A stretch of 33,630 nt of DNA, taken from Candidatus Izemoplasma acidinucleici. GTDB taxonomy: Bacteria > Bacillota_I > Bacilli_A > Izemoplasmatales > Izemoplasmataceae. Within the stretch, counting starts at the first letter, position 1; the number at the start of each line of letters is the position of its first letter. Below are positions 235 to 30,111 of the stretch, in pieces. Both the position numbers and the translations under genes were made by a program. Location: positions 1-33,630 of the forward strand of contig SDWO01000125.1 of NCBI GenBank assembly GCA_004195325.1. Direction: 5' to 3'. The notes beneath the pieces are model-generated. The model made no database searches and was not told the origin of the DNA. It saw only the letters and a list, made by a program, of their open reading frames with translations.

Positions 235-254
235 AGTTTAGACTCTATTTTTTT
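229..254. terminator. Bidirectional terminator between MFS gene and pckA
   Basis: A hairpin with arms AAATAGAGT (229-237) and ACTCTATTT (242-250) has a 4-nt loop. It is flanked by an A-run on the left and a T-run on the right, so it can end transcription in both directions. It overlaps the stop codons of both convergent genes. Confidence 0.8.
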
Positions 255-1876
255 ATTTCTTTAATTACTTTTAGGATACTTTTTCTTGCCTCTGTAGGTA
301 AAATATCTTGACTGAATAAGTGATCTATAAAATCTACTCTAGATTCAAGTCTTGATATGAATAGTTCTTTATATTTTTGATCTTTGAAATCTGGATTATA
401 ACCTTCAATATTTGTAAAGGAAATATCCTCAATACCATTTATAGTATGGAATTCTATATCTTTCTCAACAATACTCTCTATTAAACCAAGAGTTATTTTT
501 GGTGTTATATTCTTATTTAAGAAGTATCCAGTATTGATAACATAACAATCAATACCGGTGTTCTTAAATAAATCCTTGAATTTAGTATAATCATTTTTAA
601 GTGGGTATAGTCTGAATGGATTAGCATAAGGTTCAATAACTAGTCTATTCACAATAACTCCATGTTCTGCACTAGAACGTTTTGTTGCAAGTGTTGCTCC
701 AAGAGTAGAACCTAATACACTTGAGTTCACTTTAATAATAGGTGGTAAGGAATCATCTTTCATGATCCAAAAGATTGCGTCAACCTTATTATCAAACTTG
801 TAAGCTCTATGAGGTGTCCAAAACTTAGATTTTAGTGCTCTCCCATTTCCATTTCTGATATCTTCTGTAACTGGGACCACTAAACCATCGTTATCAATAG
901 TAACTCCTACGTTTTGCATTGTTAATAGAAATTTATTTTCTTCACTACCTGTAGGATAGTCTTGTACTTTATCAAAATATGACGGCTCTAAACTAATACT
1001 TGATCCATCTTTATTGTTTATAATAAATGCATCATCATGAAGTACTGTAATATCATATTTACCATTATGTTTAGAATGAGTTATAGTTGATTTCCCACTA
1101 CCTGAAAGGCCAAATACACCGGCGATATAAGTTTTAGTATCATCAAGATTGAATCTCTTTTGTCCACCATGACAAGCTGTATATCCATTTCTAGAAGCGA
1201 TTGACCAAGCCATAGTTAATGTGGCTTTTTTATGTTCACCAAAGTAACGAAGACCTATTAGTGCAGCAACGTTATGTTGGTGATCAAATAAGCTTAATCC
1301 TTCAGTGAAATCAAGAGCTTGTTCATCTGGATCACTATAAAGGAAGATATCTCCTTCATTGATTTCATTCGAATTGTCATACATACGATTCATTTCATAA
1401 TTTGGAGTTTGAAAATTAAGCATCCATGAGTATAAAGTATTCTCGTATCCTTCAGGTATTAATAAGTGAGCTTTTACCATGAAGTCTTCATGCAATCCAA
1501 CATATGCAATTCCATGATACATTTTCTTTTTACGGGAATTATATATTACATCTCTAAGTACATCTGTATACTTAGTTATATTTGATTTGTTTACTAATTT
1601 TCGTGCTTTTGCTTGTCGACCAGTGATAATACCATCATTAAATATAAGAACTTTAGCATCATCTTGTAATCCAAGGTCTTTTGCTTTGTGAATTGGTAAA
1701 TCTGAAACAATAGTTCCAGGGGCTTTTGATGCCAATTCATATGCGTGTGCTAGAGATGAAACTGTCTCTACATTATTTCTGTAATATGCAGTTTCAATTG
1801 TCGTTCTAACCTTATTATAAAGGTGCGAATTCTCTTGACCAATATCATTTCTTGTTAATTTCGATTTAGTTGACAT
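245..1876 (-). CDS. pckA: Phosphoenolpyruvate carboxykinase (ATP-type), divergent
   Basis: 543 aa, close to the roughly 530 aa usual for ATP-dependent PEPCK. The enzyme interconverts oxaloacetate + ATP with PEP + CO2 + ADP in the cytosol. Visible hallmarks: FGEHKK (about 213-217) and ACHGG (234-238), matching the metal-binding Lys and His regions; the P-loop GLSGSGKST (256-264); a kinase-2 segment HDDAF (280-284); LPPIIKV; and CYVINTGYF near the C-terminus, equivalent to the family's YLVNTGW. The kinase-2 motif is not the textbook DDEHGW, so this is a divergent subfamily. The start has AAAGG about 9 nt upstream. It lies 12 nt after ptb as the last gene of the buk-ptb-pckA operon. In a fermenter it may run in the ATP-forming direction; that is inference. 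Confidence 0.85.
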   Translation of the reverse strand: MSTKSKLTRNDIGQENSHLYNKVRTTIETAYYRNNVETVSSLAHAYELASKAPGTIVSDLPIHKAKDLGLQDDAKVLIFNDGIITGRQAKARKLVNKSNITKYTDVLRDVIYNSRKKKMYHGIAYVGLHEDFMVKAHLLIPEGYENTLYSWMLNFQTPNYEMNRMYDNSNEINEGDIFLYSDPDEQALDFTEGLSLFDHQHNVAALIGLRYFGEHKKATLTMAWSIASRNGYTACHGGQKRFNLDDTKTYIAGVFGLSGSGKSTITHSKHNGKYDITVLHDDAFIINNKDGSSISLEPSYFDKVQDYPTGSEENKFLLTMQNVGVTIDNDGLVVPVTEDIRNGNGRALKSKFWTPHRAYKFDNKVDAIFWIMKDDSLPPIIKVNSSVLGSTLGATLATKRSSAEHGVIVNRLVIEPYANPFRLYPLKNDYTKFKDLFKNTGIDCYVINTGYFLNKNITPKITLGLIESIVEKDIEFHTINGIEDISFTNIEGYNPDFKDQKYKELFISRLESRVDFIDHLFSQDILPTEARKSILKVIKEIKK

Positions 1877-1888
1877 GAGTATAAACCT

Positions 1889-2791
1889 TTATAAATTCGC
1901 AACAAGTGCACCAAGTGCAATTGAATAAAATTTACTTTCTGTTGAATCTGCTCTACTTGTTAATACAATAGGTTTTTTTGCTCCTGCAATAACACTTGCA
2001 CTTTTCGCACTTGCCAAGAACATCATTGTCTTATAAAATATATTACCAGACTCAATTCTAGGCATTACTAGTATATCTACATTACCAGCAGCTTCATGTG
2101 TTATTCCTTTGTGTTTTGCAGCTTCTATATTAATAGCATTATCAATAGCGAATGGGCCAGCGACAATACAATCCTTGATTATGTTTTCTTGATTCATTAT
2201 AATCAATTCTGCAGCATCGAGTGTAGCTTCCATTTTTGGATTGACCTTCTCAACAGCACCAATAATTCCTACATAAGGTTTTTCATTTCCTAATGCTTTT
2301 GCAATATAAACTGCATTTTCGATAATTTGTCTTTTCTCGTCAACTGTCGGTGCGATATTCATTGCTCCGTCGGTCATGAATATTAATTTGTGGTGCGTAG
2401 GAACTTCCATAACACTACAATGTGAGATTCTATTGTTAGTTCTTAGTCCAAACTCTTTATTCAATGCAGCTTTTAGAATGATAGAAGTATCAACCAAACC
2501 TTTCATTAGAAAATAAGATTCGTTTGAAGATACTAATTTAACAGCGATTAAACAAGCTTCAGTTTTGTCTGTTTCATTAATTATTTTGTAGTCCTCTGGG
2601 TTAAATGAATGATGTTTAAGTATTTCTACTATTTTTTCTTCATTACCAACAAGAATTCCATTAATAATATTTTCTTTTCTTGCCATCTCAACCGCTTCTA
2701 AAACATGTTCATCTGCAGCACAAGCTACAACAAGAGTTTTCGTTTCATTACTTTTTGCTTTTTCTACCAATTCTTTTATTGTTGTAATCAT
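1889..2791 (-). CDS. ptb: Phosphate butyryltransferase
   Basis: 300 aa, the usual length for the phosphate acetyl/butyryltransferase family. It exchanges butyryl-CoA and phosphate for butyryl-phosphate and CoA. The N-terminus (LVVACAADEHVLEAVEMARK) and the segment GIIGAVEKVNPKMEATLDAA are typical of Ptb, and the protein is shorter than Pta. It sits 8 nt after buk and 12 nt before pckA on the same strand, and its start is preceded by AGGTGA. The pairing with butyrate kinase is the strongest guide to specificity. Related branched-chain or other short acyl-CoAs could also be used. Confidence 0.9.
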   Translation of the reverse strand: MITTIKELVEKAKSNETKTLVVACAADEHVLEAVEMARKENIINGILVGNEEKIVEILKHHSFNPEDYKIINETDKTEACLIAVKLVSSNESYFLMKGLVDTSIILKAALNKEFGLRTNNRISHCSVMEVPTHHKLIFMTDGAMNIAPTVDEKRQIIENAVYIAKALGNEKPYVGIIGAVEKVNPKMEATLDAAELIIMNQENIIKDCIVAGPFAIDNAINIEAAKHKGITHEAAGNVDILVMPRIESGNIFYKTMMFLASAKSASVIAGAKKPIVLTSRADSTESKFYSIALGALVANL

Positions 2792-2799
2792 ATCTTCAC

Positions 2800-3870
2800 C
2801 TACTTATATTCTTTAAAATTTTCAATTTCTCGTAATACTCTTAATCCACCATAAGCTAATGCTTCCATTTCATCTTCACCGGGATATACAAGAACTTTAC
2901 TGATAAATGAAACTCGTTCTTTTATGTTGTCAATAATCATTTTGTCATAAGCAAGTCCACCTGTAATAATGATTGCATCAACATCACCTTTTAAAACTGT
3001 AGCTCCTGCTCCAATTTCTTTTGCTATTTGGTAACACATTACTTCTAAGATGAATTTTGCGAAATCGTCACCTTCAGTAATACGTTTTTCAATTTCGAAT
3101 CCATCATTGGTACCTAAGTATGCTACCATACCACCATTACCATAATTCATTCTTTTAATTTCCTTCAAAGTATATTTACCACTTAAAGCCATTTTGTATA
3201 AAGGTCCAATAGGAACTCCACCACTACGTTCTGGAGACATAGGTCCATCACCATCAAGCGCGTTATTAACATCAATAACTCTACCTTTTTGGTGCATTCC
3301 TACACTAATACCTCCACCTAAGTGAACAACGATTAAGTTCATATCTGTATAAGGTTTATTCAAATCTTTTATTGATTTTAAAGCAACCGCTTTTTGGTTC
3401 AGGGCATGAAATAAACTTTGACGTTTTATATCAGGCATTCCTGTGAAACGTGCTATATCATCCATTTCATCAACGGCAACTGGATCCACTATGAATGCAG
3501 GTTTGTTTATTGAATCACCAAGCTCTTTTGCAATGACACATCCTATATTAGATGCATGTTCTCCTCTAGGAGCTTCTTTAACATATTCGATCATTGCATC
3601 GTTTACTAAGTATGTTCCACCTTCTATAGGCTTAAGCATACCTCCTCGTCCAACAATAGCATCGAAAGATTCTAATTCAATGTTTTCCTCTTTCAAGGTA
3701 TTTAAAACAGCATCTTTTCTAAACTCATATTGATCAAAAATAGTATCGAAAGAACTGATTTTATCTGTGTTATGTCTAATGCTTTTCTTGAATGTAAGTT
3801 CTTCGTTTTCATATACTGCAATTTTGGTAGATGTACTACCTGGGTTTATTGCTAAAATAGTGTATTTCAT
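2800..3870 (-). CDS. buk: Butyrate kinase
   Basis: 356 aa, matching the family length of about 355. ASKHA-fold acyl kinase that converts butyryl-phosphate + ADP to butyrate + ATP. Motifs seen: the N-terminal phosphate loop NPGSTSTK (9-16), HLGGGISVG in the middle, then a DGDGPMSPERSGG segment and IITGGLAYD near the C-terminus. It has a strong AGGAGG Shine-Dalgarno and is the first gene of the operon, followed 8 nt later by ptb. Transcription starts from the consensus promoter at 3903-3931, which carries a cre-like site. Branched-chain acyl kinases are close relatives, so substrate range is not fixed by sequence alone. Confidence 0.93.
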   Translation of the reverse strand: MKYTILAINPGSTSTKIAVYENEELTFKKSIRHNTDKISSFDTIFDQYEFRKDAVLNTLKEENIELESFDAIVGRGGMLKPIEGGTYLVNDAMIEYVKEAPRGEHASNIGCVIAKELGDSINKPAFIVDPVAVDEMDDIARFTGMPDIKRQSLFHALNQKAVALKSIKDLNKPYTDMNLIVVHLGGGISVGMHQKGRVIDVNNALDGDGPMSPERSGGVPIGPLYKMALSGKYTLKEIKRMNYGNGGMVAYLGTNDGFEIEKRITEGDDFAKFILEVMCYQIAKEIGAGATVLKGDVDAIIITGGLAYDKMIIDNIKERVSFISKVLVYPGEDEMEALAYGGLRVLREIENFKEYK

Positions 3871-4147: not shown

Positions 4148-4723
4148 ATGATTTATATAGGATTAGGTATAATTGGGTTTGCAATGTTGTTTGTTGCTGA
4201 TTATTGCGGGGTAAAAGATAAGGGCTTTTTAAAATATCTTTCTGCATTTTCAGGAACTTTTTTAATAACTAGTGCAAGCGTAATTATCTTAACTAGAGGT
4301 TACAACTATAATTTGTTAATTTCTTATCGATTAATCGCATTGGTTTTCATGTTGCTATCTTTTCTATTGATGATTTATAGCGTCGTCATTGAAGTTAGTA
4401 AAAACAATTCAGAAAAGAAACTTGTAACAACAGGAACATATGCATTAACAAGACATCCTGGTGTTCTTTGGTTTTTACTGTATTACGTTTTAGGATCTTT
4501 TGTCTTCGCAGACTACATGATCTTAATCGCAGGGATTGTTTGGACAGTTATGAATATCATTTATGTTGTGCTTCAAGAAAGAATAATATTTAATAAAATA
4601 TTTGCCGATTATGAGGAATACAAAAAAACAACTCCAATGATTATCCCAACAATAAGTAGTATACAGAAATGTCTAAAAACGATTAATGGAGGAGAACATG
4701 AGAAACTTACGCGAAATGCTTAG
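4148..4723 (+). CDS. Isoprenylcysteine carboxyl methyltransferase-like membrane protein
   Basis: 191 aa with about five hydrophobic segments (near 2-20, 28-48, 58-82, 105-120 and 122-142). The C-terminal half has the ICMT/phospholipid-methyltransferase signature: GTYALTRHPGVLWF (RHPG at 102-105), then QERIIF (143-148) and a DYEEYKKTTPMIIP tail. Members of this superfamily that have been studied use S-adenosylmethionine to methylate lipid-linked carboxylates or amines at the membrane; many bacterial members have no known substrate. GGAG lies 8 nt before the ATG. The last 26 nt overlap the GH3 gene, so the two are probably translated together. Methylation of a GH3 product is possible but unproven. 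Confidence 0.7.
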   Translation: MIYIGLGIIGFAMLFVADYCGVKDKGFLKYLSAFSGTFLITSASVIILTRGYNYNLLISYRLIALVFMLLSFLLMIYSVVIEVSKNNSEKKLVTTGTYALTRHPGVLWFLLYYVLGSFVFADYMILIAGIVWTVMNIIYVVLQERIIFNKIFADYEEYKKTTPMIIPTISSIQKCLKTINGGEHEKLTRNA

Positions 4724-6272
4724 AGATGAAGACTACGACGGAATTTGGAAATCGTATTTAGGATTCTTAGATTTAAGTCTTGATGAATTTATGGAAATTC
4801 AAGAAAGACTTCTTTTAGAACAAATCGATTTATTAAGTAAATCAAAATTAGGTAGAAAAATCTTAGGTAAAAAAACTCCTAAGACAATTGATGAATTCAG
4901 AAAATATGTACCATTAACTACATATGAGGATTATGCTGATACGTTACTAAATAAACGAGAAGAAGACTTACCTTCTAAACCAAAACACTGGGTTCAAACC
5001 ACTTGGAAAGGTGGAGAACAACCTATAAAATTAGCGCCTTATAGTGAGGTAATGATTGAGGAACATACAAAAATGTTCTTAAGTACATTAATACTATCAA
5101 CAAGTAAAAAAAGAGGACATTTCAATTTAAGAAACTTTGATAGATTCTTATATGGAATGGCTCCTATGCCATACTTAACAGGATACGCACCTTATATCTT
5201 AAAAGCAGAAATAGATTTTGAATATTTACCTTCGACAGATGAAGCAGAAAAACTAACTTTTAGAGAACGAAACAAAGTTGGATTCAACCAAGCAATGAAA
5301 CATGGAGCGGATTTATTCTTCGGATTATCAAGTGTACTTGTAAAAATAGGTGAAGCCTATTCAGATAGTTCAAATAGTAAATCAAAATTACCGGTCCCTG
5401 GGAACTTCAAACAAGCAGTTAAAATGATGAGAGCTTGGTATAAAAAGAAAATTAAAAAACAACAATTACTTCCTAAAGATTTATTTGAGTTTAAGGGAAT
5501 TGTATGTGGTGGTACAGATAGTGATACATATAAAGCTAAAATTGAACACTATTACGGAATCGCACCACTTGAAATATTTGGAGGGACTGAAAGTGCTGCA
5601 GTAGCTACTGAGACGTGGAGTAGAAACGGGTTAACATTCTTTCCAGATGTAAACTTTTTGGAATTCATTCCTAAAAGTGAGTTACTAAGAGAAGAAGAAG
5701 AAATGGAATATGAACCTTTAACTGTTCTATTTAATGAACTAGAAGAAGGCGAAACATACGAGCTAGTTATTACTAAATTACGTGGTGGAGCATTTGTAAG
5801 ATATCGTATTGGTGATATCATGAAATGTGTATCATTGACAAATAAAGAAGACAAAATCAATTTACCACAAGTCAAGTATCTTGATAGAGTCCATAACATA
5901 ATTGATTTATCTGGGTTTACACGTATCACCAAACAATTAATTGGAGATGCTTTAAAACTAGAAGAGATTAGTAGTAGTACATGGACTGCTTGCAAAGAAA
6001 TAGGAGATAGCACCCCATATTTAAATCTTTATATCGAAAATAAAGATAGTTTAGAACAAGATGAATTATATTCTAGAATCAATAATAAAATGAAAGAGTT
6101 AGATCCTGATTACCGTGACGTTCACGAGATGTTAGGACATGATCCTTTGAAAATAACAGAGCTAGATGTTGGTACATTTGAAAAATTCAAAGAATCAAAT
6201 GGAACTCAAATACCTCCAATTAATCCTACAAACGAAGAAATAAAAACATTATTGAGTTTTAGTTCAATATAA
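4698..6272 (+). CDS. GH3 family acyl-acid amido synthetase-like protein
   Basis: 524 aa from the ATG at 4698, which has GGAGG 5 nt upstream; an in-frame ATG at 4686 lacks a ribosome site. The sequence resembles the GH3 branch of the ANL adenylating superfamily, named for plant auxin/jasmonate-conjugating enzymes. These adenylate a carboxylic acid and transfer it to an amine, usually an amino acid. Supporting motifs: KHWVQTTWKGG near the N-terminus (the ATP-loop region), FGGTES (294-299, corresponding to ANL motif A5), RYRIGD (368-373, A8-like), then KYLDRVHNIIDLSGFTRI. The acid and amine substrates are unknown. It overlaps the methyltransferase-like gene and lies 24 nt before the c-di-GMP gene, so the three form one operon. 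Confidence 0.8.
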   Translation: MRNLREMLRDEDYDGIWKSYLGFLDLSLDEFMEIQERLLLEQIDLLSKSKLGRKILGKKTPKTIDEFRKYVPLTTYEDYADTLLNKREEDLPSKPKHWVQTTWKGGEQPIKLAPYSEVMIEEHTKMFLSTLILSTSKKRGHFNLRNFDRFLYGMAPMPYLTGYAPYILKAEIDFEYLPSTDEAEKLTFRERNKVGFNQAMKHGADLFFGLSSVLVKIGEAYSDSSNSKSKLPVPGNFKQAVKMMRAWYKKKIKKQQLLPKDLFEFKGIVCGGTDSDTYKAKIEHYYGIAPLEIFGGTESAAVATETWSRNGLTFFPDVNFLEFIPKSELLREEEEMEYEPLTVLFNELEEGETYELVITKLRGGAFVRYRIGDIMKCVSLTNKEDKINLPQVKYLDRVHNIIDLSGFTRITKQLIGDALKLEEISSSTWTACKEIGDSTPYLNLYIENKDSLEQDELYSRINNKMKELDPDYRDVHEMLGHDPLKITELDVGTFEKFKESNGTQIPPINPTNEEIKTLLSFSSI

Positions 6273-6296
6273 TCTACTTAAAGAGAGGTGACTATT

Positions 6297-8810
6297 ATGA
6301 CATTGAATATCTTATTACTTATACCGCTTATTAGCGTGATTCTTTACGTGTTTATATTAGTTATTATCATTACATCAAATCAAACAAGATTATCAAAAGC
6401 CTTTAACTATTATATAGTCGCAATGATTATATGGAGTTTAGGGTCTTTTCTTATGAAAACGGGGATCGCACCTGGTCCGTTGTTCTTTAATAAATTTATA
6501 TTACAACCAGCTTTCATATTCGTCCCAGTCTTCTTACTCCAGTTTAGTTATGTATTGATAAACAAAACGGGTAAAAAGACTTTCTTAAAATGGGCGTATC
6601 TATTTGGGTTCTTCCTAATCATTCTATCTTTTACAGGTTTAGTTGTAGAAGATGCTTGGGTTCTAGATGGAGACTTTGATTACAGACTTGGATATGGAGC
6701 TTACTTAGTAGCCGCAGTCTCCTTAATCGTTAGTATCGTGGCATTCGTTACAATGATCAAAGCGGTACAAAAAGATCAAGTTAATATGAAGAAAGTTCAG
6801 TTAGTTATATTCGGAGTTGGGATGGTTGTTGTTGGGGGAGCGTTAAACATATTTCCTTTCCTAGGAAAATACGCAATTGATATTATCTTTAACGGAATCA
6901 GTGCAATCCTAATTACCTATTCAATATACCGAAATAAATTCTTAGAACTAAACTTAGTTGTAAAACGAGGATTATACTTCAGTTTATATAACATATTATT
7001 ATATGTCGTATACGCTACATTCATTATCTTTACGTATGAATTGATTCATACCAACTTTGATCAAGAGATATTTGTCACAGTTCTAATCATGTCACCATTG
7101 TTCTTACTCTTAGAACCAATTAGAAGAATGTTAGAAAAAGTATCTCAAAACATTTTCTACAGAGCGTCGACAGACAGACAAATAATCCTTAATGAATTCA
7201 GTTCAATCATCTCTTCATCATTTAGTTTAGAGAAAATAACTGAATCATTAATGTTTGCGATTAAACAAGGAATGGAATGTAAAGACGTTAGTATTCTACT
7301 TAAAAATACAAATAAATACATCTTACATGACACAACAATTCTAGAAATCAACTATAAAGGTTCAAGTATCTTGTTTGGACACCCCGTATTAACCTGGTTT
7401 AACGAGGGAAAAGAGATTTTACTGAAAACCGAGGTCGATAACCATATCCTATTTAAAAAGCTATGGGACAGCGAAAAAAGAGTGATTCAAAACATGAATA
7501 CTGAACTGATTGCACCAGTTAAATATCTTGATGATATAATTGGCCTTGTAGTCATAAGTGAAAGAATAGATGAAACACCTTATACAGAACAAGAAGTTCA
7601 GTTCTTAAAAACAATTTTGAATAATGGATCGGCAATCATAGAAAATGCGAAACAACTTGATAACTTAAAACGCCAATCAATTACTGATGAATTAACAAAA
7701 CTATCAAATCATCGATACTTCTATGAACAAGTTACTTCATATTTAAAAGAAGAATCACTTGAAACCGCAGGTATCGCAATTGTCGATATAGATCAATTTA
7801 AAATATATAATGATTTATACGGACATAGTGCTGGAGATAAAGCATTGAAAAGAATTGCTTCAATCATTGAAGAACATACACCTAAAGAAGCACTAATATC
7901 TAGATATGGTGGAGAAGAATTCGGGATTTACTATCCGAATTATGATAGATCACAAATGCTATCTTCAATTGAGGATATTAGAAAAGCAGTAGAGAATAAA
8001 TTCTTGCTTTCTACAGAGATTAAAGAATTCTTAACTGTCTCGGTTGGAGCAGCTTTATATCAAGAACATGGTAATAACTTAGAGGATATTGTTAAGAAAG
8101 CATTTGATGCAGTCCTACATTGTAAACAATCAGGTAGAAACAAATCAATTGTCTACAGTGAAGATGAAGAACGTAAAGACAATGTTCAAAAAGATGTTCA
8201 AGATAAAATCAAAGAAGCATATTTATCTAGTACATATGCATTAGCGGCAACAATTGATGCGAAAGACCACTATACATTCGGTCATTCAAATAATGTTGCT
8301 GAATTAAGTGTCGCTTTGGCAAAAGAAATCGAAGTAATTGAAAAAGATATTGATACAATTAGAAACGCAGGTTTACTACACGATATTGGAAAAGTAGGAA
8401 TCCCCGAATCAGTACTATTAAAAAGAGGATACTTAACAGACCAAGAGATGGAAATAATGCGTTCTCATGTTGTACAAAGTATAAACATAATCAAACACAT
8501 TCCAAACCTAGTAGATACAATTCCTATTATCATAAGCCATCATGAACGTTTTGATGGAGGAGGATATCCTAGAGGAATCAGTGGCGATAACATCCCATTA
8601 CTCGGTCGAGTAATCTGTATCGCAGATTCATTCGATGCAATGACAACTGATAGACCTTATCGTAAGGGATTATCATTAGATCAGGCGTTGTTTGAACTTA
8701 AGAAAAACTCTGGTTCACAATTTGATCCTATACTTGTTGGGAAATTCATCGACATGGTAAATAATGGTAAATTGGACTCACTAACATTAGAAAATAGACT
8801 ATCGTTTTGA
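6297..8810 (+). CDS. 7TM-GAF-GGDEF-HD-GYP hybrid c-di-GMP signalling protein
   Basis: 837 aa. The ATG at 6297 is preferred over the in-frame GTG at 6288, which is itself part of the ribosome site AGAGGTG. Order: seven or more N-terminal membrane helices of the histidine-kinase 7TM type (about 1-215) and two more helices (about 225-285), then a GAF-like region (about 290-455), GGDEF (about 461-620) and HD-GYP (about 645-830). The cyclase motif is intact (GGEEF 538-542), as are the phosphodiesterase motifs (HDIGK 695-699, HHE 748-750, GYP 756-758). No RxxD inhibitory site precedes GGEEF. The protein could therefore both make and break c-di-GMP under control of a membrane ligand. It is the last gene of the GH3 operon. 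Confidence 0.9.
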   Translation: MTLNILLLIPLISVILYVFILVIIITSNQTRLSKAFNYYIVAMIIWSLGSFLMKTGIAPGPLFFNKFILQPAFIFVPVFLLQFSYVLINKTGKKTFLKWAYLFGFFLIILSFTGLVVEDAWVLDGDFDYRLGYGAYLVAAVSLIVSIVAFVTMIKAVQKDQVNMKKVQLVIFGVGMVVVGGALNIFPFLGKYAIDIIFNGISAILITYSIYRNKFLELNLVVKRGLYFSLYNILLYVVYATFIIFTYELIHTNFDQEIFVTVLIMSPLFLLLEPIRRMLEKVSQNIFYRASTDRQIILNEFSSIISSSFSLEKITESLMFAIKQGMECKDVSILLKNTNKYILHDTTILEINYKGSSILFGHPVLTWFNEGKEILLKTEVDNHILFKKLWDSEKRVIQNMNTELIAPVKYLDDIIGLVVISERIDETPYTEQEVQFLKTILNNGSAIIENAKQLDNLKRQSITDELTKLSNHRYFYEQVTSYLKEESLETAGIAIVDIDQFKIYNDLYGHSAGDKALKRIASIIEEHTPKEALISRYGGEEFGIYYPNYDRSQMLSSIEDIRKAVENKFLLSTEIKEFLTVSVGAALYQEHGNNLEDIVKKAFDAVLHCKQSGRNKSIVYSEDEERKDNVQKDVQDKIKEAYLSSTYALAATIDAKDHYTFGHSNNVAELSVALAKEIEVIEKDIDTIRNAGLLHDIGKVGIPESVLLKRGYLTDQEMEIMRSHVVQSINIIKHIPNLVDTIPIIISHHERFDGGGYPRGISGDNIPLLGRVICIADSFDAMTTDRPYRKGLSLDQALFELKKNSGSQFDPILVGKFIDMVNNGKLDSLTLENRLSF

Positions 8811-8821
8811 TAGTCTTTTTT
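8797..8821 (+). terminator. Terminator after the HD-GYP gene
   Basis: Stem GACTATC (8797-8803) / GATAGTC (8809-8815) with a 5-nt loop and a T6 tail. The hairpin includes the last codons and the TGA stop of the gene. It separates the GH3 operon from the MATE gene. Confidence 0.85.
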
Positions 8822-8849: not shown

Positions 8850-8884
8850 TTGAAAATATAATTAACAGTGTTATAATTTGTAAC
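8850..8884 (+). promoter_or_regulatory. MATE promoter with overlapping inverted repeat
   Basis: -35 TTGAAA (8850-8855), 16-bp spacer, -10 TATAAT (8872-8877). An imperfect palindrome GTTATAATTTGTAAC (8870-8884) covers the -10 box. TAACAGTGTTA (8863-8873) is a perfect palindrome around a central G inside the spacer. Either could be an operator. Confidence 0.65.
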
Positions 8885-20935: not shown

Positions 20936-21367
20936 ATGAGAGAATATGCCAATTTACCTGCGAACTTCAATAGTCGATTAAGTGCATTCTTTTTAGACTT
21001 AGGGATTGTTGCTCTTGCATTTCTAATAAATGTATTTATGCAATACAACTATTACTACAAAATAGGGATTATCTTATTTGTTTGGTTGATGGTTAATATC
21101 ATTCCTTCTATATTTAAAAAAGGACAAACATTAGGTAAAATAAATGCTTCAATAAAAACAGTAGATTTAGAGAATAACAATATCTCTTTTTTAATATCAA
21201 GTCTTAGGAGCTTATTTATATTGGTTCTTGGATTTTTCAGTGCAGGGGTATATTTTTTAATTAGTCTTTATGTTAGTGAAAGTAGAATGGATAAACGTTC
21301 TATACATGATTTAATATTTAAAACCAAAGTTGTTAGAACAAAAGTCTTTGTCGAACTTACGGAGTGA
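20936..21367 (+). CDS. RDD family membrane protein
   Basis: 143 aa from the ATG at 20936, preceded by AGAGGTGAT. It has three to four hydrophobic segments and the RDD-family start FNSRLSAFFLDLGIVALAFL with the conserved Arg and Asp in the first helix, plus KKGQTLGKINASIKTVD in the central loop. RDD proteins are small membrane proteins; some have been linked to ion exchange, but most have no known role. The GGDEF gene starts 4 nt after the TGA stop, so the two are co-transcribed and may act together at the membrane. Confidence 0.75.
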   Translation: MREYANLPANFNSRLSAFFLDLGIVALAFLINVFMQYNYYYKIGIILFVWLMVNIIPSIFKKGQTLGKINASIKTVDLENNNISFLISSLRSLFILVLGFFSAGVYFLISLYVSESRMDKRSIHDLIFKTKVVRTKVFVELTE

Positions 21368-21371
21368 TATT

Positions 21372-23288
21372 ATGGAAAAAAACAACAAGCAAAAAGTGAA
21401 ATCAAGTTGGAGATTAGTCATCGTACTATCAATCTTCTTTTTTGCTGTAGTCCTAATTCAAGACGTAGTTAGAGAGTCTTTGTTGGTTCATTCAGAATTA
21501 AAAGCATTTAGTAATAACCTTAAAGATGAAATTGAAGATTCTGTACAAGAAAAAGTAGAATTAAGGATTTATGATATTGAATCTTTTATTGAGCAATCTC
21601 AATCACAACAACAACAACATTTATTTTCTACAATAAACAGCGTCCATGCTGCATTGAATAAATCTTCTGAATTGCTAAGTACAGAAACAGATCCTATTTT
21701 AAGAGACGAACTCATAGCAACAACTGCAAGTTATGCAACAGATGATATATTACATGAATACTATTTGATTGATACTGATGGGATAATGTATTTTGATGGA
21801 AAATTACTATCAGAAGTATCAATTGATATTAGTTCAATTACAGATGTATTGAATAGTAATTATTATCAAACATTAATCACTAACATCTTAGCAAGTCCAG
21901 AGCAAAAAGGGACAGTGAATGCATATATCCTAGAAGGATCTTTAGTTACAGAATTTAAAATTGTTGGATACTTGATTGAAGGTACTGATTATATAGTTCT
22001 TACTCAAGGGGCCTCAGAAGACTTTTTGGAAAATCAAGTATCAAATTATTTTTCTCGTTTTGGGCAACTTTATCAGGATGCTGACAATGAAATACTAGTA
22101 TTTCGTTCAAGCGGGGAAATCATCTTTCATAATAATGAAGACAACATCGGAGAAAACATTAACACAATATTCGCTTCTGAATCATTACAACAAAATGTAT
22201 TAGAAGCAATTGAGATATCTACAGTTGGTTTCTTAATTGAAGATGTAGCAAGTATCAGTATAGATATAAGTGACATTGGCTACTATGAATACATCACAGA
22301 AGCTGATTTAGGAATATATATTATTGAGAACACAGATGGATACAACGTTTTACTTGATGAATTTGGCAGTAACAATATGGCGAAAGTGATTATGATACTA
22401 GTACCTGTATATATCGTATTAACATTATTGCTTCTTGTTATTGTAAGAAAAATTTTAAAGAATATTAAACTAAGCGAACAAGTATTTAAAGAAGAAGAAG
22501 AATTATATAAAACACTTGCCAATAACACTGATAATTTTATTATAATTACTAATAAACAAGGTGATATTAGATACTTGAATGACCTTGCTAGAATTACCAT
22601 ATATGATGATGTCAAAGAGGAACCGATTAATTTAGACCAATTAATGGTCGAAGAAGATGGGTTCAAAGTGTTAATTGGTATTGAGAATAATCATTACATA
22701 AAGTATACAGTTCTACCTATTAACTACAATTCACAGGAAAGTGATTTATATATCATTAATGATGTTACTGAGAAGGTTAAAAAGGAACGAGAATTAGAAG
22801 CATTAACGCTTCAAGATGATTTAACAAAACTTGGTAATAGACGACAAATGATTAAAGATTATACAGAATATGTTTTACCACAAATACAAGACGGGAATAA
22901 AGGATTTATTGTTATGATGGATTTAGATAACTTTAAATCAGCAAACGATAGTTTTGGTCATGGATTTGGAGATGAAGTGTTAATAACTATTTCTAATATA
23001 TTCCATGAAGTAATATCCACAAACTTGAAAGTTTATCGTGTTGGTGGTGACGAGTTTGCTGTGTTGGCAACAAACACAACACAAAATACATTACTCTCTA
23101 TTCTAAGGAAGCTAAGAAACAAAATAAGCAACCATAAATATCGTCATGATATTGATATTAGTTTCAGTGGTGGATTGGTAGAAATCAGTATTAAAAATGC
23201 CAAACGCAGATTGAGCGATTATTATGAACAAGCAGATGATTTATTATATATCGCAAAAAAAGAAGGTAAAGGTATAACTAAGATTTAG
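21372..23288 (+). CDS. Membrane-bound sensor diguanylate cyclase (PAS-GGDEF)
   Basis: 638 aa from the ATG at 21372 with GGAGTGAT upstream. One helix (about 14-33), a long extracytoplasmic sensor region (about 34-335) of the dCACHE/Cache-like arrangement but not clearly assigned, a second helix (338-358), a PAS-like domain (about 380-465) starting ANNTDNFIIITNKQGDIRYLN, then a GGDEF domain (about 475-635). The GGDEF motif is exact (558-562) and DLDNFKSANDSFGHGFGDE carries the usual metal- and GTP-binding residues. No RxxD site stands before it. The likely reaction is 2 GTP to c-di-GMP in response to an external signal. It follows the RDD gene directly and ends in a strong terminator. Confidence 0.9.
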   Translation: MEKNNKQKVKSSWRLVIVLSIFFFAVVLIQDVVRESLLVHSELKAFSNNLKDEIEDSVQEKVELRIYDIESFIEQSQSQQQQHLFSTINSVHAALNKSSELLSTETDPILRDELIATTASYATDDILHEYYLIDTDGIMYFDGKLLSEVSIDISSITDVLNSNYYQTLITNILASPEQKGTVNAYILEGSLVTEFKIVGYLIEGTDYIVLTQGASEDFLENQVSNYFSRFGQLYQDADNEILVFRSSGEIIFHNNEDNIGENINTIFASESLQQNVLEAIEISTVGFLIEDVASISIDISDIGYYEYITEADLGIYIIENTDGYNVLLDEFGSNNMAKVIMILVPVYIVLTLLLLVIVRKILKNIKLSEQVFKEEEELYKTLANNTDNFIIITNKQGDIRYLNDLARITIYDDVKEEPINLDQLMVEEDGFKVLIGIENNHYIKYTVLPINYNSQESDLYIINDVTEKVKKERELEALTLQDDLTKLGNRRQMIKDYTEYVLPQIQDGNKGFIVMMDLDNFKSANDSFGHGFGDEVLITISNIFHEVISTNLKVYRVGGDEFAVLATNTTQNTLLSILRKLRNKISNHKYRHDIDISFSGGLVEISIKNAKRRLSDYYEQADDLLYIAKKEGKGITKI

Positions 23289-23315
23289 AAAGCACTCAAA
23301 ATGAGTGCTTTTTTT
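23289..23315 (+). terminator. Terminator after GGDEF gene
   Basis: AAAGCACTCA (23289-23298) and TGAGTGCTTT (23302-23311) form a 10-bp stem with an AAA loop and a T7 run. Confidence 0.92.
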
Positions 23316-23324
23316 CTGCTATTT

Positions 23325-23333
23325 TGTTATAAT
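23325..23333 (+). promoter_or_regulatory. Extended -10 promoter of tocopherol-cyclase-like gene
   Basis: TGTTATAAT is a perfect extended -10, 15 bp before the ATG at 23349, giving a very short leader. Confidence 0.6.
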
Positions 23334-23348
23334 GTATTTGGTGATATA

Positions 23349-24254
23349 ATGAATCCATTTACAATGAAACTAAGAAGAAAAACAAATTACTTTGAAGGAT
23401 ATTATGTTAGGGTTATAGATCAAAATAAGTCTTTTAATAAAGCCTTTATTTTTGGAATGACATCGAACAAAAAAGATCCTCATGCATTTATGCAGTTAGT
23501 TGATGGAGACAACCATTCAACAAAATATTATAGATTTGATTTGGATGATTTTAATTATGATCAAAACTCAATATCTATGCCAGGTATAAGACTTACAAGC
23601 ACAAGTATTTCTATTGAATTAGATGACTTCTCAATTAAAGGTGAGTTTACAAACATCGTTGGATTGCAAAAGAGACATGGTAGCAACAGTGCTATGAGTT
23701 TTTTACATATTTTACCAATGAAAACATATCAAGAAATCGTAATTATGGACTCTGTTTTTACGGGTTCATATATTATAGATAGTAAGACAACGAGTTTAAA
23801 CGGTACAACATATATTGAAAAAACATATGGTTATCATTTTCCAAGAAATTGGATCTGGATTCAATCAAGTACATTTGATAAAGATGTTCTCCTTTCTTGT
23901 AGTATTGGAGAAGCAAAAATGATAGGGATCCCATTCAAAGGGTATGTTATTAGTTTGATATACAAAGGTGAACAATACCGCTTCGCAACATATTTAAAAG
24001 ATAAAATTATTGTAAAACAAGAACCTGGAAAAGTAGAAATTATAGCATCAAACAAGAAAACCAGACTTGCTATAAAGGCGATTTCTAGCAAACCAATTAC
24101 TTTGGTTGGACCGGGACTAAAAAGTGAAATGATAATGGACGTCTTTGAAAGTATCACATCAAATGTGGAAATAGAGTTAACAAATAATAGTAATAAAACA
24201 ATAGTTAAATCGATTGGAACACATGTTGGAATGGAGAATATGTATGAAAACTAA
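23349..24254 (+). CDS. Tocopherol cyclase-like protein
   Basis: 301 aa from the ATG at 23349; the upstream in-frame start at 23301 falls inside the terminator. Family hallmarks of bacterial tocopherol-cyclase-like (lipocalin/CrtC-like fold) proteins: NYFEGYYVRV (13-22), HAFMQLVDG, and YIEKTYGYHFPRNWIWIQSS (155-174), which corresponds to the conserved E-K-x-(W/Y)-G-x-x-F-P-x-x-W-I-W-x-Q block. Plant members close the tocopherol ring, but bacterial homologues have no proven substrate and may handle prenyl or lipid compounds. The gene overlaps the next flavoprotein gene by 11 nt, so the two are likely translated together. Confidence 0.75.
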   Translation: MNPFTMKLRRKTNYFEGYYVRVIDQNKSFNKAFIFGMTSNKKDPHAFMQLVDGDNHSTKYYRFDLDDFNYDQNSISMPGIRLTSTSISIELDDFSIKGEFTNIVGLQKRHGSNSAMSFLHILPMKTYQEIVIMDSVFTGSYIIDSKTTSLNGTTYIEKTYGYHFPRNWIWIQSSTFDKDVLLSCSIGEAKMIGIPFKGYVISLIYKGEQYRFATYLKDKIIVKQEPGKVEIIASNKKTRLAIKAISSKPITLVGPGLKSEMIMDVFESITSNVEIELTNNSNKTIVKSIGTHVGMENMYEN

Positions 24255-28407: not shown

Positions 28408-30111
28408 ATGAAAAAATTAGATAAGTTGTTCATCTATTCTCTAATTGGTGGTGTTGTATTAACGCTATTGATTATTTTTATGCCTAATTCAATAAACAAT
28501 TATTATCCGAATCCTGAGATTTATGATACTGGATTTAATTACTATTTATGGAAGTTTAGAGCGATAGATCAATCTATAGTAGCACGTGTTACAGCTTGGG
28601 TTTTCTTCTTAGCACATTTTATTACGGTTGTTGTACTAATGAAGAAATTAAAAGAGAATCAAAATGAAAAAACAGAAGGATATTCGAAATATAATGTGTA
28701 CTTATTATTAGCGAATGTATTCTTTATAGTATTACATTATGTTCATACATGGTTATGGTATGATGCTTTAGCTCAAGATACTCCGGTATGGAGTAGCCAA
28801 GGTAGTGTTATTATTATGCTTGTTCTCATTCTTATTATAGAGAATAGAAGAAGAGGATTATTCTTTGGGAAGAAAGTAGTTCTGCCAAAAGAAGCAACTA
28901 GGAAAGTTATGAAGCATCATGGGATTTATATAGCTTTAGCTACTGTATTTACATTTTGGTATCATCCAATGGAAAGTACTCCATGGCATTTATTTGGATT
29001 CTTTTACATGTATTTACTGTTTATCCAAATGTCATTTAGTAGAACTAAAATCCATCAAAATAAATATTTTAATGTTTCACTAGAAGTTACTGTATTGTTT
29101 CACGGAACTGCGGTTGCCTTATATAGCGCAAATGCCCCATGGGCAATGTTCCTATTTGGATTCGCTACAATATTCTTTGTGACTCAAATATATGGACTTG
29201 GATTGTCTAAGAAAGTAATCCATATTACACAGGGGTTGTTCGTTCTTATCGCACTATTTACTTATTCAGGATTATTTGAGGGTAAATCATTTTTAGATAT
29301 CAATGAAATCATTCGTATACCTGTGATTGAATACCTATTAGTATTTGTATTTGTCTTTGCTATATATGGTTGGATAAAACTACCATTTAATAAATGGGTA
29401 AAGAGAGTCATTGCAGGATTATTAATTGCAATAACTACTTTATACGCAGTCTTGGTCATGTACACAATTAGTAGTTATCAACCAGCTCCTGAAATGTATG
29501 ACTTAATAGACGCACCTGGTTATGGATATGACTTGAACTATACTGAAGAAAGTGGTTTCTATCAATACACACCTCATGACGAGAGATACTATAGAGCTAA
29601 TATTATTATAATTCCTGGAGGTAAAGTCAATCCTCAAAGTTATAGATACTTAGCACAGGAACTTGCAAAGATGGACTATAAAGTTACTGTAATTAAGCCA
29701 TTGTTTAATTTAGCAATACTTAATCCATATCAAGCAGAGAAATATATCGAAGATGATGTAGAAAACTATATTATTGGTCATAGTTTAGGTGGAATAGTTG
29801 CTTCAATGGTGGCTAGTAGAAATGACATTGAACTATTATTTCTTTTAGGTGCTTATCCAATAAAAGATGTAAGTAATATTAATGTACACTTTATAGTTGG
29901 AGAAAATGAGAAACTACGTGAGAATCCGGATTATGAAGATAGCATAAAGTTAGTTGATGTATACAATGAATCCGTTATTCCAAAAGGTAATCATGCATAT
30001 TTTGGATTCTATGGTGAACAAAAAGGTGATGGAGAAGCAACCATTTCTAACAGGGACCAGCAGGATTTTCTTGTTGATCTAATAGAGTTTCTAATAAGAG
30101 AGTCCGATTAG
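28408..30111 (+). CDS. Multi-pass membrane domain fused to alpha/beta hydrolase
   Basis: 567 aa. The N-terminal 360 or so residues form about ten hydrophobic helices with no family recognised. The C-terminal part (about 395-565) is an alpha/beta hydrolase of the Abhydrolase-5 type: IIIIPGGKVNPQSYRYLA (PGGKV from 403), YIIGHSLGG (nucleophile Ser459), LLGAYPI, HFIVGENEKL (acidic residue, Glu in place of a clear Asp) and GNHAYFGFYGEQKGDG (His529). Related stand-alone hydrolases are usually secreted or single-pass. A polytopic membrane fusion suggests action on a membrane lipid or an imported ester. GAGGTGG precedes the start. It is monocistronic, with a strong terminator. Confidence 0.75.
   Translation: MKKLDKLFIYSLIGGVVLTLLIIFMPNSINNYYPNPEIYDTGFNYYLWKFRAIDQSIVARVTAWVFFLAHFITVVVLMKKLKENQNEKTEGYSKYNVYLLLANVFFIVLHYVHTWLWYDALAQDTPVWSSQGSVIIMLVLILIIENRRRGLFFGKKVVLPKEATRKVMKHHGIYIALATVFTFWYHPMESTPWHLFGFFYMYLLFIQMSFSRTKIHQNKYFNVSLEVTVLFHGTAVALYSANAPWAMFLFGFATIFFVTQIYGLGLSKKVIHITQGLFVLIALFTYSGLFEGKSFLDINEIIRIPVIEYLLVFVFVFAIYGWIKLPFNKWVKRVIAGLLIAITTLYAVLVMYTISSYQPAPEMYDLIDAPGYGYDLNYTEESGFYQYTPHDERYYRANIIIIPGGKVNPQSYRYLAQELAKMDYKVTVIKPLFNLAILNPYQAEKYIEDDVENYIIGHSLGGIVASMVASRNDIELLFLLGAYPIKDVSNINVHFIVGENEKLRENPDYEDSIKLVDVYNESVIPKGNHAYFGFYGEQKGDGEATISNRDQQDFLVDLIEFLIRESD

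Follow-up and report, generated by a model that had tools for sequence, protein, structure and literature searches.

The analysed stretch of DNA (the window; 33,630 bp of contig SDWO01000125.1 from Candidatus Izemoplasma acidinucleici) carries three adjacent genes for a membrane methyltransferase-like protein, a GH3-like ligase and a 7TM receptor with c-di-GMP output domains. The question raised by this locus is whether they act together as a functional set that makes a small compound and reads its level, as an earlier note on this DNA had suggested. Overall, the association of the three genes was found to be near-certain, and the preferred reading, with a probability of about 0.58, is a dedicated synthase-plus-receptor cassette in which the product of the two enzymes would be read by the 7TM-GAF receptor.

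Gene layout and neighbourhood

The first gene (4148..4723, + strand) encodes an integral-membrane methyltransferase-like protein of the ICMT kind with 191 aa, the second (4698..6272, +) an ANL-fold, GH3-like acyl-acid ligase of a distinct clade with 524 aa and the third (6297..8810, +) a 7TM-GAF-GGDEF-HD-GYP receptor with 837 aa. The start codon of the GH3 gene was placed at ATG 4698, the mechanical ORF start being earlier at 4686, and that of the sensor gene at ATG 6297 with AGAGAGG upstream. On inspection of the sequence, the 26-nt overlap between the methyltransferase and GH3 genes and the 24-nt gap between the GH3 and sensor genes were both exact as previously given. A Shine-Dalgarno-like GGAGGA for the GH3 gene was located at 4688..4693 (+) within the methyltransferase reading frame, which points to putative translational coupling of these two genes. 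An intrinsic terminator-like stem-loop with a T run (8796..8816, +) overlaps the sensor stop codon at the end of the cassette, and a separate promoter-like site at 8850-8877 precedes the next gene, which encodes a MATE exporter (8901). Because of this hairpin and this promoter-like site, transcription of the three genes as one unit is plausible.

Neighbouring genes were also considered as members or partners and were rejected. The MATE gene, with its own promoter-like site, was near only four family loci, window included, and the adjacency of the thiolase and SDR genes further downstream to the cassette was not conserved. The genes for PEPCK, phosphate butyryltransferase and butyrate kinase (ptb-buk-PEPCK, 245-3870) are divergent from the cassette and adjoin it at every family locus whose flank extends far enough. 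They were rejected as a partner because they are divergent and conserved within the family only; judged by gene size and order, no ptb-buk pair was seen adjoining the cassettes of other lineages. A scan of the window with Rfam produced no match, thus no known riboswitch ties the window to c-di-GMP. In addition, a tocopherol cyclase-like protein (PF14249, 4e-14) that is unexpected in this lineage was identified at 23301-24254, adjoining an HI0933-like flavoprotein, and another GGDEF protein of 652 aa is encoded at 21330-23288.

Distribution and linkage of the three genes

Of the 49 family genomes, 17 had GH3 of the cassette kind. The 7TM domain was present in the same 17 genomes and in 0 of the 32 others (Fisher 1.5e-13, shared ancestry ignored), strong methyltransferase matches were at the same loci as GH3, and the gene order methyltransferase-GH3-7TM was unbroken at all 16 loci of relatives in the family. 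When 392 genomes of the phylum to which the window belongs were searched with profile A1, 12 had clade GH3, members of other Bacilli families among them; of 400 Chloroflexota genomes, 29 gave a match, two of these being canonical GH3 by score, which leaves 27 clade carriers. With a 7TM-only profile, full-length matches above 165 bits were obtained in 29 of these 400 Chloroflexota genomes, the general 7TM tail lying below ~130 bits; the cognate 7TM subfamily was present in 27/27 GH3-clade genomes vs 2/373 others (Fisher 6e-40, shared ancestry ignored). The GH3 proteins of the window and of other Bacilli and Chloroflexota cassettes were 35-40% identical. The cassette ranges over Bacilli, including the wall-less Izemoplasmatales, and Chloroflexota, including Dehalococcoidia-like genomes rich in reductive dehalogenases. 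Eleven Chloroflexota carriers that were checked had 18-50 reductive dehalogenase matches each, and by these counts they are Dehalococcoides/Dehalogenimonas-like. Genome G045 carries the cassette at locus L039. Two receptors belonging to the cognate 7TM subfamily, L169 (G341) and L170 (G273), were solo, with no GH3 nearby, and are possible eavesdroppers.

Across 60 clade GH3 ORFs, one gene of which enters as two fragments, a methyltransferase gene was just upstream of 47 at a median distance of -1 nt, so that overlap or near-overlap of the two genes recurs at these 47 loci. A sensor gene was just downstream of 51 (median distance 21 nt) and both partners flanked GH3 in 39. About a dozen of the 60 had no adjoining methyltransferase. 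Non-adjacent sensors were within ~5 kb of GH3, in some cases on the opposite strand, and some of them had a doubled 7TM domain; at several Dehalococcoidia-like loci the sensor was a few genes off and on the opposite strand. For comparison, neither such a methyltransferase nor a 7TM sensor adjoined any of 13 Chloroflexota GH3 genes, canonical or other, that served as a control. The earlier note had proposed a genome search for conserved co-occurrence of the three families and had counted lack of adjacency in every related genome as refuting a set. Adjacency proved near universal in the clade and spans phyla, and the co-occurrence was borne out in the 17 family genomes with GH3 and in all 27 Chloroflexota carriers.

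Distances between GH3 proteins and between 7TM-GAF parts were correlated (r = 0.93, Mantel 0.001), and in genomes with two copies (G051, G052) each sensor sorted with the clade of its partner and not with the genome, although this agreement of the trees is equally expected if a linked cassette was simply inherited vertically. The Chloroflexota genome G051 was found to hold three GH3-clade copies (L027, L094 and L111) with differing methyltransferase and output types, as if they were parallel channels.

Ligase, methyltransferase and receptor

The GH3 protein matched GH3_M (49.5 bits, 4.6e-13) and GH3 (26.8 bits), both its N-terminal and its central domain exceeding the Pfam cut-off of 23.6. The AF2 model of the protein had a pLDDT of 86.8, and Foldseek comparison of the model with the PDB produced hits to GH3.6, JAR1, GH3.12, BT_0428 and PaaK, the best at 1.8e-20. 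The plant enzymes (JAR1/GH3.11, GH3.12, GH3.6) share the fold and motifs II and III with the cassette GH3 but are only ~15-17% identical in structural alignment and differ in motif I. In the GH3 tree, the cassette clade forms a long branch apart from canonical bacterial GH3. Motifs II and III are kept in the window protein as FGGTE and RYRIGD, while motif I reads TTWKGGEQPIK against the canonical TSG[ST][ST]. By lineage, nearly all Bacilli members had TTW[KRE]GG as motif I, and most Chloroflexota members had a motif of the TSG[RK][STG] type. The C-terminal lysine was present in 5/5 canonical controls and most Chloroflexota members and missing from the window and the Bacilli members. Owing to the altered motif I and the missing lysine, the usual ATP-driven adenylation is not assured in the window lineage, and it may have been lost or altered there.

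These two changes also favour an alternative in which the GH3 of the window lineage is no longer an ATP-driven ligase and would be a binding protein, or would use a pre-activated acyl group such as the acyl phosphate of ptb-buk, the genes of which are divergently adjacent at family loci with the flank present. The strong constraint under which the fold and motifs II and III are kept argues against this alternative, as does the outcome that, by size and order, ptb-buk was not observed next to the cassettes of other lineages; it is unlikely, though a serious possibility. It is compatible with the synthase-plus-receptor reading but alters the chemistry.

For the methyltransferase, the family-model match was to the ICMT-like NF040696 (1.3e-9, 38 bits, below the equivalog cut-off of 160), the match to the solved structure PDB 4a2n was at 2.7e-6, and scores were under the curated cut-offs of DUF1295 and PEMT. 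The RHP and Q...F..Y..Y motifs are retained, RHP being conserved over 36 homologues. Judged from these matches, the nearest kin of the first cassette protein would be isoprenylcysteine carboxyl methyltransferase (ICMT). In Anaerolineales and relatives the upstream enzyme is a soluble UbiE-type methyltransferase with a fold unrelated to that of the membrane enzyme, and mapping on the GH3 tree showed that the fold was swapped once. At L105:4584-6521, the C-terminal half of a methyltransferase and GH3 were found in one ORF of 645 aa, which is a true fusion or an assembly error.

The sensor matched HisKA_7TM (PF16927) with 30.0 bits vs a cut-off of 28.6, GGDEF at 6e-35 and HD_5 at 8e-39. Its membrane part has about nine hydrophobic segments by hydropathy, namely the 7TM domain (~residues 7-210) and a hairpin at ~226-275, followed by GAF (~300-455), GGDEF and HD-GYP. 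An AF2 model of residues 1-470 (pLDDT 89.8) confirmed the GAF domain by fold; structure search found GAF matches only and no solved homologue of the membrane domain. The previous description of a 7TM receptor with two output domains was therefore right as to HisKA_7TM, GGDEF and HD-GYP but had overlooked the hairpin and the GAF domain, and its statement that the cyclase and phosphodiesterase domains are intact agrees with the presence of all catalytic motifs (RYGGEEF, HDIGK and HHERFDGGGYP). The RxxD inhibitory site of the sensor GGDEF is absent, with PKEA in its place. The N-terminal membrane domain belongs with the HisKA_7TM family, here joined to GAF and varied outputs; the GH3-linked domains differ from general members, which have no tie to GH3 and score below ~130 bits, in being a high-scoring subfamily. 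In sensors of other Bacilli families (L118-L122), HD-GYP was intact and the GGDEF motifs were degenerate. Sensors of 1113-1122 aa with two tandem 7TM domains were seen near GH3 at L096, L097 and L102 and in genomes G131, G163, G096 and G243.

Sensor outputs varied among the cassettes and comprised GGDEF with HD-GYP, HD-GYP alone, HisKA with HATPase, the same with a receiver, and a HisKA_3 kinase. Mapped on the GH3 tree, the output changed from one of the two kinds, kinase and c-di-GMP, to the other at least four times. Response regulator genes adjoin the kinase versions L094 and L111 and are also beside the c-di-GMP versions L107 and L123. Since outputs switched at least four times and the methyltransferase fold once, the conserved part is the enzyme-plus-sensor core: the ligase, a methylation step and the 7TM-GAF front end are fixed and the read-out is free to change. 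A constant core with a changing read-out is as expected if the front end senses something that the enzymes make or remove.

Proposed mechanism and rival explanations

According to the synthase-plus-receptor reading, the GH3-like enzyme would join a carboxylic acid, probably fatty or aromatic, to an amine, e.g. an amino acid, and the membrane methyltransferase would cap this product and mask its charge, most simply as the methyl ester of a free carboxyl. The capped product would be a neutral, membrane-soluble small molecule that partitions through membranes, so that a dedicated exporter would be needless. The 7TM-GAF part would read the product level and set the balance between c-di-GMP synthesis by GGDEF and breakdown by HD-GYP within the same protein, by which the signal level would be converted into a c-di-GMP level; in relatives, a histidine kinase or HD-GYP alone would be driven by this front end. 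We infer that the enzyme product is the receptor ligand, and the best reading of this product, a methylated lipophilic amide or ester sensed by the receptor, is likely but unproven. The substrate of ICMT is a lipid-bearing amino acid, the carboxyl of which it methylates, and an N-acyl amino acid would thus be a natural substrate for the ICMT-like partner. An N-acyl amino acid methyl ester as the exact product is a guess with the odds clearly against it.

That the three genes work as one functional set, as proposed before, is upheld by synteny, presence and absence, matching trees and output swapping; the changes in motif I and the lysine of the window GH3 weaken the simple story. The window's own 1.9-Mb genome, of a wall-less lineage, also speaks against the synthase-plus-receptor reading, since a genome-wide domain search showed 22 GGDEF domains yet no PilZ domain. 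Co-travel of the genes in distant bacteria with interchangeable outputs suggests an undescribed way of making and sensing an own chemical signal. We know of no described signal of such a kind in these Bacilli and Chloroflexota lineages. The wider claim of a new bacterial signalling class, in which GH3 and methyltransferase would make a lipophilic amide or ester autoinducer for a dedicated 7TM-GAF receptor with interchangeable outputs across Bacilli and Chloroflexota, falls somewhat short of an even chance.

No system combining GH3 with a cyclase or a kinase was found in the open-access literature, in agreement with the earlier statement that none of this composition is described. The PhcBSRQ system of Ralstonia is similar in that PhcB, a methyltransferase finishing a lipophilic fatty-acid methyl ester signal, is encoded beside the sensor kinase PhcS (PMC8578825), and it shows that a design in which a kinase reads an ester made by the methyltransferase encoded next to it does work. 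It differs in having no GH3 ligase, a 3-hydroxy fatty acid methyl ester as signal and a two-component output to PhcA instead of c-di-GMP; PhcS is a histidine kinase with phcR/phcQ, whereas the window sensor is a GGDEF-HD-GYP protein without a kinase. ComQXPA of Bacillus subtilis likewise places a lipid-type modifying enzyme next to a multi-span membrane sensor kinase (census in PMC4008528), but its signal is a prenylated peptide and neither GH3 nor methyltransferase is involved.

The nearest bacterial precedent for the enzyme pair points elsewhere. The tested bacterial GH3 enzyme OlsH uses free fatty acid, ATP and ornithine to form N-acyl ornithine, and its gene shares a transcript with that of the methyltransferase OlsG (PMC12493201); as a GH3 that makes N-acyl amino acids beside a methyltransferase, it is also a precedent for the enzyme steps proposed here. 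The planctomycete pair yields a structural lipid and no signal, an analogy that weakens the signal reading and would suit a membrane-lipid module, in which the two enzymes would produce an envelope lipid, a methylated amino lipid, and the 7TM protein would monitor this lipid or envelope state and adjust physiology with no cell-to-cell signal. Besides this olsH-olsG-olsI operon, which pairs GH3 with an N-methyltransferase (PMC12493201), the lipophilic substrates of ICMT-like and UbiE-like enzymes and the unusual envelopes of the hosts (wall-less Bacilli, Chloroflexota) are in its favour. However, the Singulisphaera OlsH-OlsG-OlsI system includes an acyltransferase, lacks a receptor and makes a bulk membrane lipid. 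No OlsI-type alpha/beta-hydrolase O-acyltransferase was found beside the window cassette, an alpha/beta hydrolase at 28408-30111 being 20 kb off; the constant partner is a sensor and not further lipid genes, and a dedicated receptor with swapped outputs is not usually needed for bulk lipids. Such a lipid module is rather unlikely.

Handling of an outside compound is improbable. Here the sensor would detect an environmental aromatic or fatty carboxylic acid, which the enzymes would render inactive through amidation and methylation. In plants, hormones are inactivated in these ways by GH3 enzymes and carboxyl methyltransferases, and plant GH3 enzymes often set the levels of active acids; the predicted co-transcription of the sensor with the enzymes and the two solo sensors without GH3 (G273, G341) would also fit. 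On the other side, the output is mostly c-di-GMP with no direct induction of the enzymes, efflux or catabolic genes are not consistently linked, and methylation of an amide adds little detoxification. Finally, a chance or conserved neighbourhood without shared function is hardly credible: gene order may persist in slow-evolving genomes, but this linkage spans two phyla at the sequence identity given above, outlasts replacement of outputs and methyltransferase and is absent around canonical GH3.

If true, the synthase-plus-receptor reading, which is directly testable, would mean that wall-less Izemoplasmatales and Dehalococcoides/Dehalogenimonas-type bacteria have a first candidate system for making and sensing a signal. 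It would also assign a role to a divergent branch of bacterial GH3 enzymes and put forward a candidate class of ligands for an orphan family of 7TM receptors.

In many Chloroflexota loci, a small conserved protein of ~103-144 aa was encoded ahead of GH3 or the methyltransferase (L107:3963-4307, L108:3916-4227, L110:1298-1618, L123:4430-4756, L097:3425-3847, L106:3089-3523 and L089:441-776). This protein is ribbon-helix-helix-like with the motif MLIV..ELVKKI..NRGDM...EFI.FLI and is a candidate regulator of the cassette.
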